From Pseudomonadota bacterium (lineage in GTDB: Bacteria > Pseudomonadota > Alphaproteobacteria > Rhodospirillales > Magnetospirillaceae): a DNA stretch of 64,000 nucleotides. The stretch spans positions 1 through 64,000 of the forward strand of contig JAJYTF010000009.1 in the NCBI GenBank assembly GCA_021793155.1, in the 5' to 3' direction. Numbering within the stretch: position 1 is the first letter of the stretch; each line of letters opens with the position of its first letter. The notes beneath the pieces are model-generated. The model was not told the DNA's origin and did not search any database. It saw only the letters and a list, made by a program, of their open reading frames with translations. A program made the position numbers and the translations under genes. Positions 36,633-46,694 of this stretch are shown here, piece by piece.

Positions 36633-37002
36633 TTTCCATCGGCCGCAAGGCCGCGGCTCGACCGATCCCGGCCAAAGGCCGTACTTGACCCTTCGCCGGG
36701 GACCGCCCCGCGACCCGGACTTGCCGGGTCACCCCCCCTTTCAGGTGGTCCCCTGCCTACCCGAATGACGGAGTTCTGCCGCCCTGGCGGGTGTTCCATC
36801 GCCGGGGGGTGATCGTGACTCTTCAATAATTCGATACGTTAATCCCCTTATTACCAAAGTATAGACACATTAGCACTGAAGCATAAGTTTTTATGCGTTG
36901 ACAATAATGCAACCCCAAATACGATTTCGCTAAGGCGGTTGAAAAAATATCGATAGCCCGAACAGGGCGGAATTCAAGCCGGCATGACGAGGAAACATCA
37001 CG
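36633..37002. other. Intergenic region before the sulfur/cytochrome operon
   Basis: No gene is supported. The first 200 bases are GC-rich with short GC palindromes. From about 36820 onwards the sequence turns AT-rich and carries the likely promoter of the downstream operon. A GCATAA-GTTT-TTATGC inverted repeat lies at 36881-36896, just before the -35 box, and may be an operator. Confidence 0.6.
36898..36925 (+). promoter_or_regulatory. Sigma-70 type promoter for the TsdA operon
   Basis: A perfect -35 box TTGACA (36898-36903) is followed after 16 bases by TACGAT (36920-36925), which has four of six -10 consensus bases. The first gene starts 78 bases further on. A 6-bp-arm inverted repeat abuts the -35 box on the upstream side, a position suited to a regulator. 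Confidence 0.55.
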
Positions 37003-37800
37003 ATGGCGATCACCACTGGACGTCGCACTGTACTACAAACGATCGGGCTGGGAATGGCGGCGAGCGCGTTCGGCTTGACCGCCGGCGAAGCCGGAACTGC
37101 CCAGGCTGCCGTCAGCTCAGACCTCGCGCCGGCGGGCGCAGGCAAACTCAAGATGCTGCTGGAACGACTGCAAAAGGCGCCGCGCCGTCGCGATTTCACC
37201 ACCGTGCCGATGATCCTCACCAGTCCCGACCAGTGGGATCACGAAGCTCTGAACGAGGTCGTGGCCTACAAGGGCGGGCCGAAACAGGTGTGGGATCACA
37301 CCGACATCGCCGGCCCCTGGCTGAACCTCATGCGCAACTCGCTGAATGCGCAGGTCTGGTCGTACAAGCACCCGGATTTCCTCGTCGTGTCGGCGACCCA
37401 CGGCTCCGCCCATCTGGCGCTCTATGACCAGGCGATGTGGGATAAGTACCAGTTCGCCAAGTTGACCAATGACAAATTCAAGAGGAACTCGCTGATCGAG
37501 CTGCCGAAAATGGCTTCGGCAGACCCCGCTAATTTCGAAGATCCTGAAGGGGTGTTCTCGGCCGCCGACAACGCCATTCCGACCCTGATGCGGCGTGGGG
37601 TCGTGTTCATGGCCTGCCACAACGCGATCGCCGAGATGTCCCACAAGCTGATCAAGGCAAATAATAACCCCGACAAGCTGACATTCGAACAACTGACGGC
37701 AGAACTGACAAACCACCTGATTCCCGATGTTATTTTGACTCCCGGCATCGTCGCTACTCTGCCTGTTCTACAGGCTGCCGGCTTTCACTACGCGAAGTAA
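37003..37800 (+). CDS. Tat-exported DsrE-like protein
   Basis: Protein of 265 residues. A twin-arginine signal (TTGRRTVLQTIGLGMAAS, Arg7-Arg8) ends near AQAAV, so it is exported folded to the periplasm. The C-terminal half resembles DsrE/F-type sulfur-carrier folds: 'NAIPTLMRRGVVFMACHNAIAEMSHKL' followed by 'IPDVILTPGIVATLPVLQAAGFHYAK'. It has a single cysteine, Cys205 in MACHN, at the position where DsrE proteins carry persulfide. The fold assignment is from pattern only. It is first in the run binding protein - cytochrome - TsdA, which supports a sulfur role. Confidence 0.75.
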   Translation: MAITTGRRTVLQTIGLGMAASAFGLTAGEAGTAQAAVSSDLAPAGAGKLKMLLERLQKAPRRRDFTTVPMILTSPDQWDHEALNEVVAYKGGPKQVWDHTDIAGPWLNLMRNSLNAQVWSYKHPDFLVVSATHGSAHLALYDQAMWDKYQFAKLTNDKFKRNSLIELPKMASADPANFEDPEGVFSAADNAIPTLMRRGVVFMACHNAIAEMSHKLIKANNNPDKLTFEQLTAELTNHLIPDVILTPGIVATLPVLQAAGFHYAK

Positions 37801-37811
37801 GGAGATATCTG

Positions 37812-38819
37812 ATGCGTTCGGTCCTGCGCCGCGCCCTGCTCGGTTCCATTGCGTGCGCCCTTCTGGCCGCACCTGCCCTGGCGGAGGAGGCCGGCGGCAA
37901 ATCCTATTCCGCCGCCTGCCCACAACCGCATATGGGGGAAAACACCCTGCCGCCGTGGCAAGCCGGCAGCAACAATGACGCGACCGACCGCGGGCTACCC
38001 TTCACCGTTCCGGAAGTGGACGTCCTAGCCGACTTCCATGGCGACCTGACCGATCCCAAGCTCATCCTGTTCTTCGGCGGCAACTACTTCTTCGCCACTG
38101 GCCCACTGGTGGCGGCCTTCGAGAAGGCCCATCCGGAATACAAGGGCCGCATCTTCTGGGAGACCATCCCGCCGGGCCGGCTGATCGAGCAGATCCAGAA
38201 AGGTGGCCGCATCACTGTCGGCAACATGACCTGGACGGCCAAGGCCGACGTCTATTTCGGTGGCCTGAAGAAGGTGAAGGAAAATATTGACGCCGGCATC
38301 CTGACCGGCCAGGCGGTGCCCTACGTCACCAACACGCTTACCATCATGGTGCCGAAGGGCAACCCAGCGCATATCACCAGCTTGGCCGACCTCGGCAAGC
38401 CGGAAGTCCGCCTGGCCATGCCCAACCCGGCCTATGAGGGTATCGGTCGGCAGATCAAGGCCGCGCTGACCAAGGCCGGCGGCGAGGCGCTGACCAATGC
38501 TGTCTACGAGACCAAGGTGAGCGCGGGCAGCACCTATCTGACCCAGATCCACCATCGGCAGACACCCCTGTCGGTTATGCAGGGCTGCGCCGATGCCGGC
38601 GTGACCTGGCAGTCCGAGGCAATGTTCCAGGAGCAGGCGGGTAACCCCATCGAGCATGTGGCCATTCCCGACTCGCAAAACGTGACGGCGATCTATGCCG
38701 GCGCGCAGGTCAAGGGCGCGCCACACCCGAAGGCGGCGAAGGCCTGGCTGGAGTTCATCCGGTCGCCTGAGGCGTTGGCGATTTTCCAGCGCTACGGCTT
38801 CAAGCCCTACGCGGCTTGA
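37812..38819 (+). CDS. Periplasmic substrate-binding protein (ModA-like, type 2 fold), orphan
   Basis: Exported protein of 335 residues with a Sec signal ('LLGSIACALLAAPALAEE'). The body looks like a type 2 periplasmic binding protein of the molybdate/sulfate kind: 'LILFFGGNYFFATGPLVAAFEKAHPEYKGRIFW', 'VPYVTNTLTIMVPKGNPAHITSLADLGKPEVRLAMPNPAYEGIG', and a C-terminal 'HPKAAKAWLEFIRSPEALAIFQRYGFKPY'. No ABC permease or ATPase is nearby, so it is not obviously part of a transporter. It may bind a sulfur oxyanion or act as a partner of the redox enzymes. AAGGAG precedes the start, 11 bases after the DsrE-like gene. Confidence 0.85.
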   Translation: MRSVLRRALLGSIACALLAAPALAEEAGGKSYSAACPQPHMGENTLPPWQAGSNNDATDRGLPFTVPEVDVLADFHGDLTDPKLILFFGGNYFFATGPLVAAFEKAHPEYKGRIFWETIPPGRLIEQIQKGGRITVGNMTWTAKADVYFGGLKKVKENIDAGILTGQAVPYVTNTLTIMVPKGNPAHITSLADLGKPEVRLAMPNPAYEGIGRQIKAALTKAGGEALTNAVYETKVSAGSTYLTQIHHRQTPLSVMQGCADAGVTWQSEAMFQEQAGNPIEHVAIPDSQNVTAIYAGAQVKGAPHPKAAKAWLEFIRSPEALAIFQRYGFKPYAA

Positions 38820-38859
38820 GGCGTCCGGACAATTACCTGAATCCAAAGGACTATCGCCG

Positions 38860-40128
38860 ATGGCCAAACTGCACTGGTTCTGTGCCGGTCTCATTCTCGC
38901 CGCGACGACGGCGCGAGCCGCCGAGGCTCCCGCCGATGCGGTCGAGCGCGGGGCCTATCTGGCACGGGCGGGCGACTGCATTGCCTGCCACACGGCTCCC
39001 GGGGGCGCCGAGTTCGCCGGCGGACTGCCGCTGGATACGCCCGTCGGGCGGATCTACTCCACCAACATCACGCCCGACCGGGCAACCGGCATCGGCAGCT
39101 ATAGCCTCGAGGACTTCACCCGTGCCGTGCGGCAGGGCGTTGCCAAGGATGGCCATCGCCTTTATCCGGCCATGCCGTTTCCCTCCTACACCAAGGTGAG
39201 CGACGCGGACATCCAGGCGCTGTACGCCTATTTCCAGCACGGCGTCACTCCGGTGAAACAGGCCAACCGTCCCAGCGCCATACCGGCGCCGCTCAACTTG
39301 CGATTTCCGCTGGCCATCTGGGACGTGATGTTCCTGCACGAGGGGGCATTTCGGCCGGATCCGGCCCATGACGCGCGGTGGAACCGCGGTGCCTATCTGG
39401 TCGAAGGACTGGGTCACTGCGGGGCTTGCCACACGCCACGAGCCCTGAGCCTGCAGGAGAAGGCGCTGAGCGACGGCGACGGCTCGATCTTCCTGTCCGG
39501 CAACAAGTTTGACGGCTGGTTCGCCAAGAGCCTGCGCGGCGGCGACCAGGATGGCCTAGCCGGATGGAGCGAGGGCGAACTTGTCACGTTCCTGAAGACC
39601 GGCACCACCGACCGAACGGCTGCCTTCGCCAACATGGCGGAAGTGGTACAGCACAGCACCCAATATCTCAGTGACGATGACCTGGGTGCCATTGCCCATT
39701 ACCTGAAGTCGTTGCCGGCTCATCAGGGGGGATCCTCGGCTGCCGCCGGGACCCGCCAGGCCGCGGCCACGGCCGAGGATCATCCGGGCAGGGGCAGCGC
39801 CAACTACAACCAGTTCTGCGTAACCTGCCATCGCCCCGACGGCGGCGGTGCGCCCCACATCTTCCCGGCCCTGGCCGGCAACGATGTGGTGGAGACGGCC
39901 GACCCGACATCGCTGATCCACATCGTGCTCAGCGGTGGACGGATCGCCCATACCTCGGCCCATCCAATGCCGTTCGCCATGCCTGGGTTTGCCAGGATGG
40001 ACAACCGCGATGTGGCCGAGGTGGTGACCTTCATCCGCACCACCTGGGGCAACAATGCCGCTCCCGTCAGCGCCGACCAGGTAGCGAAGGTCCGCGCCAA
40101 CCTCACTCAGGCGGAGGTGAAGCCGTGA
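38860..40128 (+). CDS. Triheme cytochrome c (alcohol-dehydrogenase-cytochrome-subunit type)
   Basis: Periplasmic electron carrier of 422 residues with a signal peptide ('LHWFCAGLILAATTARA'). There are three heme-binding motifs: CIACH (40-44), CGACH (187-191) and CVTCH (320-324). The first two domains match the cytochrome subunits of membrane alcohol/aldehyde dehydrogenases ('GAYLARAGDCIACHTAPGG', 'YSTNITPDRATGIG', 'GAYLVEGLGHCGACHTPR'). No dehydrogenase flavin or PQQ subunit is adjacent. Its stop overlaps the start of TsdA, so it is a likely electron acceptor for that enzyme, replacing the TsdB cytochrome of other bacteria. That is inference. Confidence 0.9.
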   Translation: MAKLHWFCAGLILAATTARAAEAPADAVERGAYLARAGDCIACHTAPGGAEFAGGLPLDTPVGRIYSTNITPDRATGIGSYSLEDFTRAVRQGVAKDGHRLYPAMPFPSYTKVSDADIQALYAYFQHGVTPVKQANRPSAIPAPLNLRFPLAIWDVMFLHEGAFRPDPAHDARWNRGAYLVEGLGHCGACHTPRALSLQEKALSDGDGSIFLSGNKFDGWFAKSLRGGDQDGLAGWSEGELVTFLKTGTTDRTAAFANMAEVVQHSTQYLSDDDLGAIAHYLKSLPAHQGGSSAAAGTRQAAATAEDHPGRGSANYNQFCVTCHRPDGGGAPHIFPALAGNDVVETADPTSLIHIVLSGGRIAHTSAHPMPFAMPGFARMDNRDVAEVVTFIRTTWGNNAAPVSADQVAKVRANLTQAEVKP

Positions 40129-41027
40129 CCTCCGAACAGCTGAAGATGAAGAAGATGCGTATCATGCGCCACACCCTGATGGCCGGCCTCGTGATCATGG
40201 GCCTGGTGCCGCCGGCCCTGGCCCAGACCCCGACTCAGGAGACCCCGCCAGCGGCACCGGTCAAGTTCCTGGTGCCGCGTCTGGCCGACATTCCTGATGA
40301 CGCGAACGGTAAACAGATCCTCTATGGCCGTCGCTTGGTCATGGAAACCGCGCGGTTGCTGCCGAGTAACGTCGGTGACGTCCTGAACTGCACCAGTTGC
40401 CATTTGGGCGGCGGAACGGTGGCTGGAGCTTCGCCCTTCATAGGCCAGTCATCAGCCAGCTATCCCCGCGACAATCCCCGGGCGGGCCACAAGGTCACCT
40501 TGGAGGATCGGATCAACGGCTGCTTCCAGCGGTCGATGAATGGCAAGCCGCTGGCCAATGATTCGGCGGAGATGAAGGCCATGGTGGCCTATTTCAACTG
40601 GCTTTCGGCGGACGTCCCACCGCACGCCAAGGTCGAGGGCGCGGGCATCGGCAAGATAGACAAGACCCTGGTACCCGACGCGGCTCACGGCAAAGAGCTT
40701 TATGGCACCAAATGTGCCGTTTGCCACGGCACCGACGGCCAGGGTCTCAAGAACGCGAAGGGCGAGTTTGTCTTTCCACCATTGTGGGGCGACCGGTCGT
40801 TCAATGTCGGCGCCGGCATGGCGAGAACTTATACCGCCGCCGCCTTCATCAAGCGCAACATGCCGATCGGCTATGGCCTGAACGGCCCGCTGGGCCAGGG
40901 CGGCGCGCTCACCGAGCAGGAAGCGGTGGACGTGGCGGAATATTTCAGCCACCAGCCGCGCCCCGATTTTCCCGCCAAGGTCAACGACTGGCCAAATGGA
41001 GGCAAGCCGAAAGACGCGCGGTACTAG
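40125..41027 (+). CDS. tsdA: TsdA-type diheme thiosulfate dehydrogenase
   Basis: Periplasmic enzyme that joins two thiosulfates into tetrathionate, or does the reverse. It has 300 residues, with a signal peptide ending near PPALAQ. Heme sites are CTSCH (89-93) and CAVCH (197-201). 'LEDRINGCFQRSMNGKPL' carries Cys133, matching the cysteine that serves as an unusual axial heme ligand in TsdA. 'FPPLWGDRSFNVGAGMARTYTAAAFIKRNMPIGYG' and the final 'NDWPNGGKPKDARY' are strongly typical. GTG 40125 has GGAGG seven bases upstream and overlaps the cytochrome stop codon. Confidence 0.93.
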   Translation: MTSEQLKMKKMRIMRHTLMAGLVIMGLVPPALAQTPTQETPPAAPVKFLVPRLADIPDDANGKQILYGRRLVMETARLLPSNVGDVLNCTSCHLGGGTVAGASPFIGQSSASYPRDNPRAGHKVTLEDRINGCFQRSMNGKPLANDSAEMKAMVAYFNWLSADVPPHAKVEGAGIGKIDKTLVPDAAHGKELYGTKCAVCHGTDGQGLKNAKGEFVFPPLWGDRSFNVGAGMARTYTAAAFIKRNMPIGYGLNGPLGQGGALTEQEAVDVAEYFSHQPRPDFPAKVNDWPNGGKPKDARY

Positions 41028-43884: not shown

Positions 43885-44231
43885 GCCGTGTCTCCAAAAC
43901 GGAAATATTGAGAGACTATAGCCGCACCATCGGCTAGTGCCAAGGGTGCGTCGGCATGTGGCGGCCTCGATACCGCCGCAAGACCCAAATCGGCTCGATG
44001 CCGACAAGGACCCCAGTTTGGCCGGGAGGCTGATGATCATCGACTAATCCCAACAAACATACATTGCAACAAATTGTTGTTACGGGCAAACTCGCGCGAT
44101 TATGAAAAAGAATGTCCACAGTATTGATATAGCAAACATCGCGTGTTCACATCGCCTCTCGCTATCTAGCCTAGGTCATGGTACCGGCCTGCCTACGCGT
44201 TCCCGGACGCCCTTTTCAAGGGGAACAGACA
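43885..44231. other. Intergenic region between divergent comM and the GGT-like pseudogene
   Basis: No gene is supported in these 347 bases. The middle and right part (about 44040-44165) is AT-richer and may hold the old promoter of the pseudogene. A short palindromic CAACAAATTGTTG lies near 44070. A ribosome site (AAGGGGA) lies just before 44232. Confidence 0.5.
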
Positions 44232-44930
44232 ATGAGGCGTTTCACTTCGGAGACGTCGCTAACCGGCGCTCTTGTTCTTGTCTTTGGGCCTGCGCAGACC
44301 GCCGACATCAAGGGAAAATACTGCGATACACCATCGCGGTGCCTGGACCCGATGGCGACCAATGCCATGGTCACCACGTCCGATTACCTGGCGACGCAGG
44401 CCGGCCAGAAGGCGACGATCGCGTTCTACACGTCAAAGGGTCTGCCGAAGATTCCGTCGCGCGGCTACCTGGCCGCCAACACCGTTCCTGGTGTCATCTC
44501 GGGCTGGGATGCCGCCTACCAGTACGCGAAAACCAGCATTGGGGTTGGAGTCGCCTGCTGAATTCGGCTGTCCGCTATGCCGATAACGGCTTCGCCGTCA
44601 CTCCCAGCCTCGCCTATTGGGAACAGGTGAATCTCAATCCCGCGGATCAGCAATTTCGCAATCTGCAGCGCTTCGATGGCTTCCGCCGGACCTTCCTGAA
44701 GGCCGACGGCACCGGTTATGGGCTTGGGGAAATTCTGAAACAGCCTGAGTTGGCGACCACCTTGCGCCTGATCGCCAAGGACGGTGCCAAGGCTGGCCCA
44801 CGGTGGCGTCCTGACCGCGGCCGATTTCGCCAGGCACAAGGCGAACTGGGTAGCCCCCATTTATGTCCAATATCGCGGCCGCACCGCGTACAATTTCCCG
44901 CCGAATACCCAGGGCATGGCGTCCCTGAAA

Positions 44931-44957
44931 ATCCTCAACATCCTCAACATCCTCAAC
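44931..44957 (+). repeat. Three tandem copies of a 9-bp unit in the pseudogene
   Basis: ATCCTCAAC occurs three times in a row and reads ILN-ILN-ILN in the surviving frame. Intact relatives are not expected to have this run, so it looks like replication slippage after the gene lost selection. Confidence 0.8.
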
Positions 44958-45453
44958 AATTTCGATGTGAAGTCGTTGGGTGAAAGTTCGGCTGACTGCT
45001 ACCACCTGATGGTCGAAGCGCCGAAACAGGCCTTTGCCGACCGCGATCGTTACCTGTCGGACCTGAGTTCGTCCAGATTCCAATCGAGTTCCTGCTGTCC
45101 CCTGCCCACGGCGCCGATCAGGCGGCGCGAATCGACATGAAAGTTGCCGCTCAGGAGCTCAAACCGCTCGATCCCAAGGGCGACACAGTGTGGTTCGGCG
45201 TGGTCGACAAAGACGGCAACGCGGTTTCGGTGATCCAAAGCATCTACCACGACTTCGGATCGGGCATCGTTGCCGGCGATACCGGCGTGCTGCTGCAGAA
45301 CCGTAGCAGTTTCTTCTCGCTCGATCCCAACCACATCAATCACCGGGAACCCGGCAAGCGCACCTTCCACACCTTCAATCCGGCCATGCTGATGAAGGAC
45401 TGCCGCCCCTTCCTGGTTTACAGCACCATGGGCGGGGAAGGGGAACCGCAGAC

Positions 45454-45576
45454 CTAGTGGTCCGCCCCAGACGCTTGGTCCCCAAGCGCCTGGATCAGGC
45501 GGCCCACCAACCAATTGAATTGTGGTGAAAATCCGACGGCTGGTGGCGGTACCATCCGTCGGATTTTCACCACTAG
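45454..45576 (-). repeat. 123-bp MITE-like repeat, copy 2, inserted in the pseudogene
   Basis: This is the same element as 24614-24736 in opposite orientation, identical in length, with CTAGTGGT and ACCACTAG ends. The long stem is conserved (pairing perfect over about 16 bp) even though its bases differ from copy 1 at two stem positions, each compensated on the other arm. Joining the flanks at the shared TAG puts the two pseudogene halves back in one frame, with TAG where relatives commonly have a glutamine. That fits insertion by duplication of a short target. Confidence 0.85.
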
Positions 45577-45836
45577 GCCAGCATGGTTACCCGCATAGTT
45601 GATTTCGGCATGTCCCCGCAGAACGCCATCACCGCCCCGTGTTGGTTGCACGGCCGAACCTGGGGCGCTGCCGCCTACGGCCTGAGACTGGAGGGCCGCG
45701 TTCCCGCCAACGTGGTCGAGGAACTGCGGCACCGCGGCCATCCGGTGACGGTGGTCGACGATTTCACCGACACCTGGGCCATGCGGGCGCACCCGGTAAG
45801 CGGCGTGCTGCAAGGCGCCACCGATCCCCGCGGCGA

Positions 45837-46694
45837 CTATCTCGACTTTTCGCCCACCGTTCCGACAGTCTGGGGACCCGTCCAGCCAGCCATGCGGGCG
45901 GACAGCCACCACCAGGCCCGTGCCGCCCGCAGCTTCCCTTCATTGGTCAGGTGGCCGCCGTCCTGGGTATAGCCGGCATACATGACGGGCTCTCCGCTGA
46001 CCATCACCTGCCGCCCTTGCGGGTCATGTGATTCGATATCGGCAATATCGTAAAGCGGTTTGCCATGCTCCTCGGCGTAAGCCCGGACCAGCCGGTTATA
46101 GGCGTTGCGCAGCTGGTTGCCGTTGTTCATCAGGGGAACAGTCCACCATACGAAGCGAACTTTGGGGTGGGCTTTTTCCAGGCGTTCCATGCCGTTACGG
46201 TAGTCGGCGAACAGCCGCGCAGGGTCTGTTTTCGGGTCCTGGAAATCGACGAAGCACAGCTTCATCATCGCCACATCGGCGGTCCGCCCCTGCCTTTCCA
46301 TGCGGCGCGAGAAATCCGCGATCTTGCCCTCCGGCTCGCCATTGCGGCCAACGAAGAAATGCTCGATGCCGGCCTGCTTGTCGTCCTCCGCCCCGCCTTT
46401 GAACAAGGCCGACAAGCTGAACCGCGAGGGCTCGGAGCGCACAACCAGCCGGTAGCGGCCGGGGTTTTGGCGGGCTAGTGCTTCCACGCCTTCCAGAAGA
46501 TTCGCACCCACCGACTGATGGCCGAAATAGACATCCAGGCTTCTCGCCCGGTCGAGCCAACGCTGGGGAATGACTTCATCCCGCGTATCGATGGTGGTGT
46601 GATCCGCGGTCAAGGCCGCGGCTGAGGCGCTGGTGGAAAGGATCAGTCCGCACACAGCGGACAACGCCGCCTTGCCCATCGTCTGCCCGTTCAT
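45837..46694 (-). CDS. Exported SGNH/GDSL-hydrolase-like protein
   Basis: Protein of 285 residues with a signal peptide ('MGKAALSAVCGLILSTSASAAAL'). 'SLDVYFGHQSVGANLLEGVEAL' offers a candidate nucleophile Ser, and 'DGGHLTNEGKLRAARAWWWLSARM' a C-terminal Asp-x2-His, the SGNH layout. The substrate is unknown; family members act on esters of lipids or polysaccharides. Its last codons lie within the degraded 3' end of the GGT-like pseudogene, so the C-terminal dozen or so residues may be non-native. GGAG lies seven bases before the ATG. Confidence 0.75.
   Translation of the reverse strand: MNGQTMGKAALSAVCGLILSTSASAAALTADHTTIDTRDEVIPQRWLDRARSLDVYFGHQSVGANLLEGVEALARQNPGRYRLVVRSEPSRFSLSALFKGGAEDDKQAGIEHFFVGRNGEPEGKIADFSRRMERQGRTADVAMMKLCFVDFQDPKTDPARLFADYRNGMERLEKAHPKVRFVWWTVPLMNNGNQLRNAYNRLVRAYAEEHGKPLYDIADIESHDPQGRQVMVSGEPVMYAGYTQDGGHLTNEGKLRAARAWWWLSARMAGWTGPQTVGTVGEKSR

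Follow-up and report, generated by a model that had tools for sequence, protein, structure and literature searches.

The analysed stretch, called the window here, comprises 64,000 nucleotides of a bacterium of the Magnetospirillaceae (assembly GCA_021793155.1, contig JAJYTF010000009.1, positions 1 to 64,000), and four open reading frames follow one another on its + strand (Table 1). The preliminary description of this DNA had reported four same-strand genes separated by 11, 40 and -4 bases, with export signals on all of them and no membrane subunit of a transporter among them. The reading-frame coordinates give the same layout, none of the four genes encodes such a subunit, and gene 1 carries a Tat leader while genes 2-4 have Sec-type leaders, as judged by eye. 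The single promoter assumed there was not borne out, as the only promoter-like match (36898-36925, 10 of 12 positions) equals the chance expectation of 0.9. The terminator scan at the operon also stayed at chance level. The operon resembles its surroundings in base composition and is without compositional sign of recent transfer. It is preceded by his genes and genes for a HIT protein and a helix-hairpin-helix protein; downstream come genes for a response regulator with an HD domain and for a ComM-like ATPase. The names his, HIT and ComM were given by eye. A search of other genomes found the same set again, and because of this recurrence the four genes can be regarded as more than a chance assembly. 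Elsewhere in the window, at 44178-45972 on the + strand, a gamma-glutamyltranspeptidase is broken up into several short ORFs that lie in different frames, and PF01019 matches three of them in order; the gene appears to be disrupted or affected by sequencing errors.

Table 1. Genes of the operon and single codons discussed in the text, in window coordinates
Feature	Position	Strand	Basis
tsd (gene 1): haem-free thiosulfate dehydrogenase family protein (AFE_0042 type)	37003..37800	+	NF052225 405 bits; AF2 + Foldseek; conservation
Tat leader twin arginine, Arg7-Arg8 codons	37021..37026	+	sequence; alignment
Cys205 codon, lone invariant Cys, C-H-N motif	37615..37617	+	56/56 sequences; aligned with conserved Cys of DsrE proteins
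sbp (gene 2): orphan ModA/sulfate-binding-type periplasmic binding protein	37812..38819	+	PF13531 1e-51; fold
cyt3 (gene 3): triheme cytochrome c, alcohol/glucose/fructose dehydrogenase subunit family	38860..40128	+	8gy2_B 1.7e-115; three CxxCH
tsdA (gene 4): diheme thiosulfate dehydrogenase/tetrathionate reductase	40125..41027	+	A. vinosum TsdA structures 2e-58; PF21342
Cys133 codon, predicted sixth ligand of haem 1	40521..40523	+	alignment with 4v2k/4wqc; ligand role PMC5146829
Met246 codon, predicted ligand of haem 2, context K-x-N-M	40860..40862	+	alignment with 4v2k/4wqc; PMC5146829

In regard to the first gene, its product (TSD) matches the NCBIfam equivalog NF052225 above the cut-off of 300 bits, with residues 7-265 placed on model positions 1-259, and the possibility that it is merely an unnamed DsrE protein was ruled out on this ground. 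NF052225 can be equated with the A. ferrooxidans AFE_0042 family because the same series of a Tat-leader protein, a solute-binding protein and DoxDA is described there (PMC2754497, PMC6335251), and because an Acidithiobacillus ferruginosus locus (L052) has TSD-SBP-DoxD twice. The twin arginine is kept in every row of the TSD alignment that extends to the leader region, and Cys205-His206-Asn207 is invariant in 56 TSD sequences; Cys205 is the single cysteine of gene 1, as the preliminary description had noted. The DsrE-like fold that had been guessed there is supported as a prediction. In the AF2 model (pLDDT 85.7, with a disordered leader), the top solved structures found by Foldseek are of DsrE type, 2pd2 and 3pnx, with 3mc3 further down; scores are modest, the top matches having probabilities of 1.00 and 0.94 yet E-values of 9e-3 to 0.1 (best 8.7e-3), which are weak by score. 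Alignment of TSD with plain DsrE proteins by hhalign gave probabilities of 63-64%, against 0.1-0.2% for unrelated controls, and placed Cys205 on or beside their conserved cysteine. Furthermore, DsrE-family genes replace gene 1 in other loci. The Pfam DsrE model (PF02635) had no match in the 56 TSD members at E up to 10, a profile search included among the sequence comparisons found no related solved structure, and viral contigs held no TSD relatives. Weak DPPIV_N matches in 29 TSD members (best E 0.0018) were dismissed as noise.

The second gene was confirmed to encode a binding protein with the fold of ABC transporter components of the ModA/Sbp type (SBP), and none of the flanking genes encodes a permease or an ATPase. 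As in Acidithiobacillus, sbp adjoins tsd. Other loci (L119 18338-19108, L010 5179-5943, L116, L117) repeatedly have, next to SBP or TSD, a further SBP_bac_11 protein of shorter length (SBP2).

For the third gene, 38860 is the better start, since the longest ORF begins at 38695, inside gene 2. The resulting protein of 422 residues matches 8gy2_B across residues 14-413, the match stopping at position 435 of 478 in 8gy2_B, and it is the only triheme protein of the alcohol dehydrogenase (ADH) type found in its own genome; TsdB, a small diheme cytochrome, was ruled out as its identity by the length, the three CxxCH motifs and the ADH-type match. Gene 4 has a GTG start with GGAGG a few bases upstream, as seen by eye. 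Two CxxCH motifs, the SoxA/TsdA cytochrome domain and the predicted ligands of both haems identify its product as a true TsdA.

Within the order the TSD family is uncommon, with one carrier among 150 genomes, and it is present in two of five genomes of the genus. The second genus carrier (L102) has the same TSD-SBP-triheme start, with 93% identity in TSD, and a metagenome-assembled genome (L014) starts in the same way and has the complete four-gene layout with similar flanks. The operon of the window is the rare triheme version of a TSD-TsdA set. Since its own genome has, besides, soxA/soxB (contig 60) and a canonical pair of TsdB and TsdA (contig 25), the operon would be an additional route. 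Neighbours of the contig 25 pair (L100) include a LysR regulator and a putative sulfate exporter of the YeiH-like type, and YeiH-like proteins are also found near TSD/TsdA loci of Methylobacterium and Hymenobacter. On contig 60 (L101), SoxA-SoxB are followed by YeeE/YedE-like transporter, CcdA-like and thioredoxin-like proteins, all named by eye.

Neighbourhoods of TSD were collected by a profile scan of GTDB genomes (79 loci), with plasmid loci added; the best 80 of 177 loci were kept, those most similar to the window gene, so their frequencies are not a census. At the 75 of these best loci that had at least 4.5 kb downstream, partners were sought within 7 kb, and TsdA was found at 42, DoxD at 21, neither at 12 and both at none, a lack of overlap with a chance of 1.7e-10 when loci are left unclustered. 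When TSD sequences of the same best loci were clustered at 80% identity, 24 of 49 clusters had TsdA and 16 DoxD, the chance of zero overlap being 6e-7. In the TSD tree the TsdA/DoxD label changes at least 10 times, of which well-supported branches alone force only about three. Some TsdA-type loci among the 75 are without SBP. Methylorubrum thiocyanatum is a carrier of the TsdA type and Gluconobacter oxydans 621H one of the DoxDA type. Five further TSD carriers came from 398 genomes of the phylum that were drawn separately: one with TSD-SBP-TsdB-TsdA, one with TSD-SBP-DoxD, two without a partner, and one (L129) in which TSD, SBP and a sulfur transporter precede a fusion of the triheme cytochrome with TsdA. 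The module had been described as centred on TsdA. This does not hold strictly, since gene 1 itself belongs to a thiosulfate dehydrogenase family and tsd-sbp is known beside doxDA in Acidithiobacillus. At 21 of the 75 loci homologues of gene 1 occur away from tsdA, with DoxD in its place, an outcome that the preliminary description had named as refuting; these loci show an exchange of the partner and not a dissolution of the module.

Genes for DsbA, DsbD, TlpA, YeeE and a metallo-hydrolase are also frequent neighbours of TSD. A gene for subunit I of a haem-copper (cbb3-type) oxidase often follows TSD/SBP/TsdBA or DsrE/SBP/TsdBA sets (L005, L015, L017, L021-L023, L025, L026, L028, L119, L120), which suggests a dedicated terminal oxidase.

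Natural fusions tie the parts more closely. SBP and TsdA form a single polypeptide directly behind TSD at five Planctomycetota loci (L057, L059, L083, L084, L086), and together with the adjacency of the genes this supports the earlier suggestion that the binding protein is a partner of TsdA. A five-haem polypeptide of triheme cytochrome and TsdA stands behind TSD in Burkholderia aenigmatica (L041) and in L129, the latter from a different family and carrying SBP and a split sulfur transporter. Rhizobium, Ideonella, Cupriavidus, Thioclava and a B. stagnalis replicon have the same fusion but no TSD beside it, the two genes adjoin in Paracoccus versutus (L106), and in Bosea TsdB and TsdA are apparently one ORF. 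Replacement of TsdB by the triheme protein, as proposed in the preliminary description, agrees with these fusions. The comparison made there with the MoxJ/XoxJ-cytochrome partnership of methanol dehydrogenases may be taken as an analogy. As the triheme-TsdA units exist without TSD and SBP, TsdA catalysis as such does not depend on the latter two. In the TsdA tree all triheme-linked TsdAs fall into one group (support 98), and inside this group the window pair stands apart from B. aenigmatica; it is therefore probable that TSD came together with triheme-TsdA units on more than one occasion, and independently with other TsdAs. At two loci (L104 4860-7291 and L108 4917-7366) the genes behind the fusion encode a response regulator and a histidine kinase whose binding domain is of the phosphonate type. 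This kinase architecture is presumably that of the tetrathionate sensor TtrS, and these TtrSR-resembling loci could possibly be tetrathionate-responsive units.

SBP homologues without adjacent TSD were found on plasmids of Komagataeibacter, Acetobacter, Paraburkholderia, Spirosoma and two Hymenobacter. All six plasmid loci that were read have TsdA nearby and a DsrE-family gene adjoining SBP at the position of TSD; five of these DsrE genes exceed the Pfam cut-off, and that of Komagataeibacter is identical to that of Acetobacter across the stretch compared. Such an arrangement speaks for the DsrE reading of TSD as well as for a direct relation between SBP and TsdA.

TSD and TsdA have been treated as two kinds of thiosulfate dehydrogenase from different bacteria in a review, the TSD gene having been identified in 2013, as given in reviews. 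According to one of them, A. ferrooxidans TSD makes tetrathionate, and neither ubiquinone nor horse cytochrome c is reduced by it (PMC6335251). A 2024 review puts a "?" in the place of its electron acceptor (PMC10859504). Both points call for a dedicated acceptor. In TsdA, two thiosulfates are coupled at the Cys-ligated haem, and TsdB receives the electrons (PMC9774590). We propose, with a probability of roughly 0.58 and on the strength of family identities, gene order, natural fusions, the TsdA/DoxD alternation and the DsrE genes in the place of TSD, that the operon encodes one periplasmic thiosulfate-oxidising assembly with a substrate half and an exchangeable redox half. The substrate half would consist of TSD, as a DsrE-fold protein with an invariant cysteine, and the oxyanion-type SBP, and the redox half of TsdA with a triheme subunit borrowed from membrane dehydrogenases instead of TsdB. 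SBP would capture thiosulfate and present it to TSD and/or TsdA, TSD could hold or activate it at Cys205, two thiosulfates would be joined into tetrathionate at the Cys-ligated haem of TsdA, and the triheme cytochrome would carry the two electrons on to the respiratory chain. DoxDA would serve as the redox unit in other bacteria, and TsdB or the triheme cytochrome would accompany TsdA elsewhere. Physical contact between the parts, the substrate of SBP, the order of steps, the role of Cys205 and the direction of the reaction are what we infer here. The findings together suggest that the adjoining redox unit may be the acceptor of TSD, or that TSD and SBP may prepare thiosulfate for it.

Related to this, TSD could be mainly a DsrE-type carrier and not an enzyme, which with SBP would deliver thiosulfate loaded on Cys205 to interchangeable oxidases, either TsdA with its cytochrome or DoxDA. 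We hold this only tentatively, as less probable than not. If true, it would explain a cofactor-free "dehydrogenase" and the missing acceptor, and tetrathionate formation in Pseudomonadota, Planctomycetota and Acidobacteriota would be served by a general system of substrate delivery, with a plain-DsrE form in Bacteroidota.

It is less likely that TSD with its SBP is one thiosulfate dehydrogenase and TsdA with its triheme cytochrome another, the two being merely co-regulated and each working alone, for example at different pH or thiosulfate levels. A. ferrooxidans TSD is reported as active by itself (PMC6335251), so handing substrate to TsdA is not required, and the triheme-TsdA fusions lacking TSD, as well as the additional TsdB-TsdA pair and soxA/soxB of the same genome, fit such independence. 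On the other hand, TsdA and DoxD never stand together beside TSD at the 75 loci from the best 80 of 177, which suggests one slot and not the stacking of enzymes, and SBP is fused to TsdA and accompanies it even where TSD is missing.

That the unit works in reverse and reduces tetrathionate with electrons received through the triheme cytochrome appears improbable. The TtrS-like kinases beside the L104 and L108 fusions would fit it, but the operon of the window has no kinase of this kind next to it. The haem-2 context K-x-N-M is that of C. jejuni TsdA, a tetrathionate reductase (PMC5146829), but its Asn-Met is shared by all aligned TSD-linked TsdAs and by M. purpuratum TsdBA and so is not diagnostic, and TSD is reported only as an oxidase. 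Least probable of all is that TSD and SBP form a sulfur-trafficking or protective unit, handing sulfane sulfur on for import or repair and having only a loose link with tetrathionate formation, since the most constant partners, direct fusions included, make tetrathionate from thiosulfate, even if the DsrE fold, the DsrE genes in the place of TSD and the frequent DsbA, DsbD, TlpA, YeeE and metallo-hydrolase neighbours would suit it.

Searches of the open-access literature, mostly at the level of titles and abstracts, found neither TSD described together with TsdA, nor SBP as a partner of TsdA, nor triheme-TsdA proteins; the parts are known, and their combination and exchange pattern appear to be new. 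The presence of TSD and TsdA in one operon, the fusions and the TsdA/DoxD alternation point to the acceptor of TSD and make the acceptor question testable, and the natural fused proteins are ready material for expression and structure work. If the proposed assembly holds, it would assign a role to a family of orphan ModA-type binding proteins and would show the recruitment of an alcohol/sugar dehydrogenase cytochrome subunit into sulfur metabolism.

Compared with known systems, TSD would share the core fold and the cysteine position with DsrE/DsrF-like sulfur carriers, as predicted at modest scores, and has the gene position that such proteins take in related loci; it differs from them in its 265 residues, its Tat leader, its insertions and its similarity below Pfam detection. 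Likewise, gene 3 has three haems and matches the triheme subunits of alcohol, glucose and fructose dehydrogenases (8gy2_B, 8hdd_B, 7w2j_C) along its length, whereas its neighbours are TSD, SBP and TsdA, with no dehydrogenase subunit adjoining; unlike those subunits, the triheme cytochrome of TsdA loci is paired or fused with TsdA. Gene 3 also ends about 40 C-terminal residues earlier than those chains, whose tail we take to be a membrane anchor. In Acidithiobacillus ferrooxidans and A. ferridurans, with their tsd-sbp-doxDA cluster (AFE_0042-0044), homologous TSD and SBP are adjacent as in the window and the periplasmic chemistry from thiosulfate to tetrathionate is the same, but the redox partner is DoxDA and not TsdA with a triheme cytochrome. 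These three genes are listed in one A. ferrooxidans operon with higher expression on sulfur (PMC2754497), and Acidithiobacillus is without TsdA according to a review (PMC6335251). Finally, the TsdA/TsdB systems (A. vinosum TsdA, M. purpuratum TsdBA fusion) have, like the window, a Cys-ligated haem 1 and a cytochrome partner gene directly upstream, with partner-TsdA fusions known, while in the window the partner is a triheme cytochrome of the alcohol/glucose/fructose dehydrogenase family in place of the diheme TsdB, and TSD and SBP are added.
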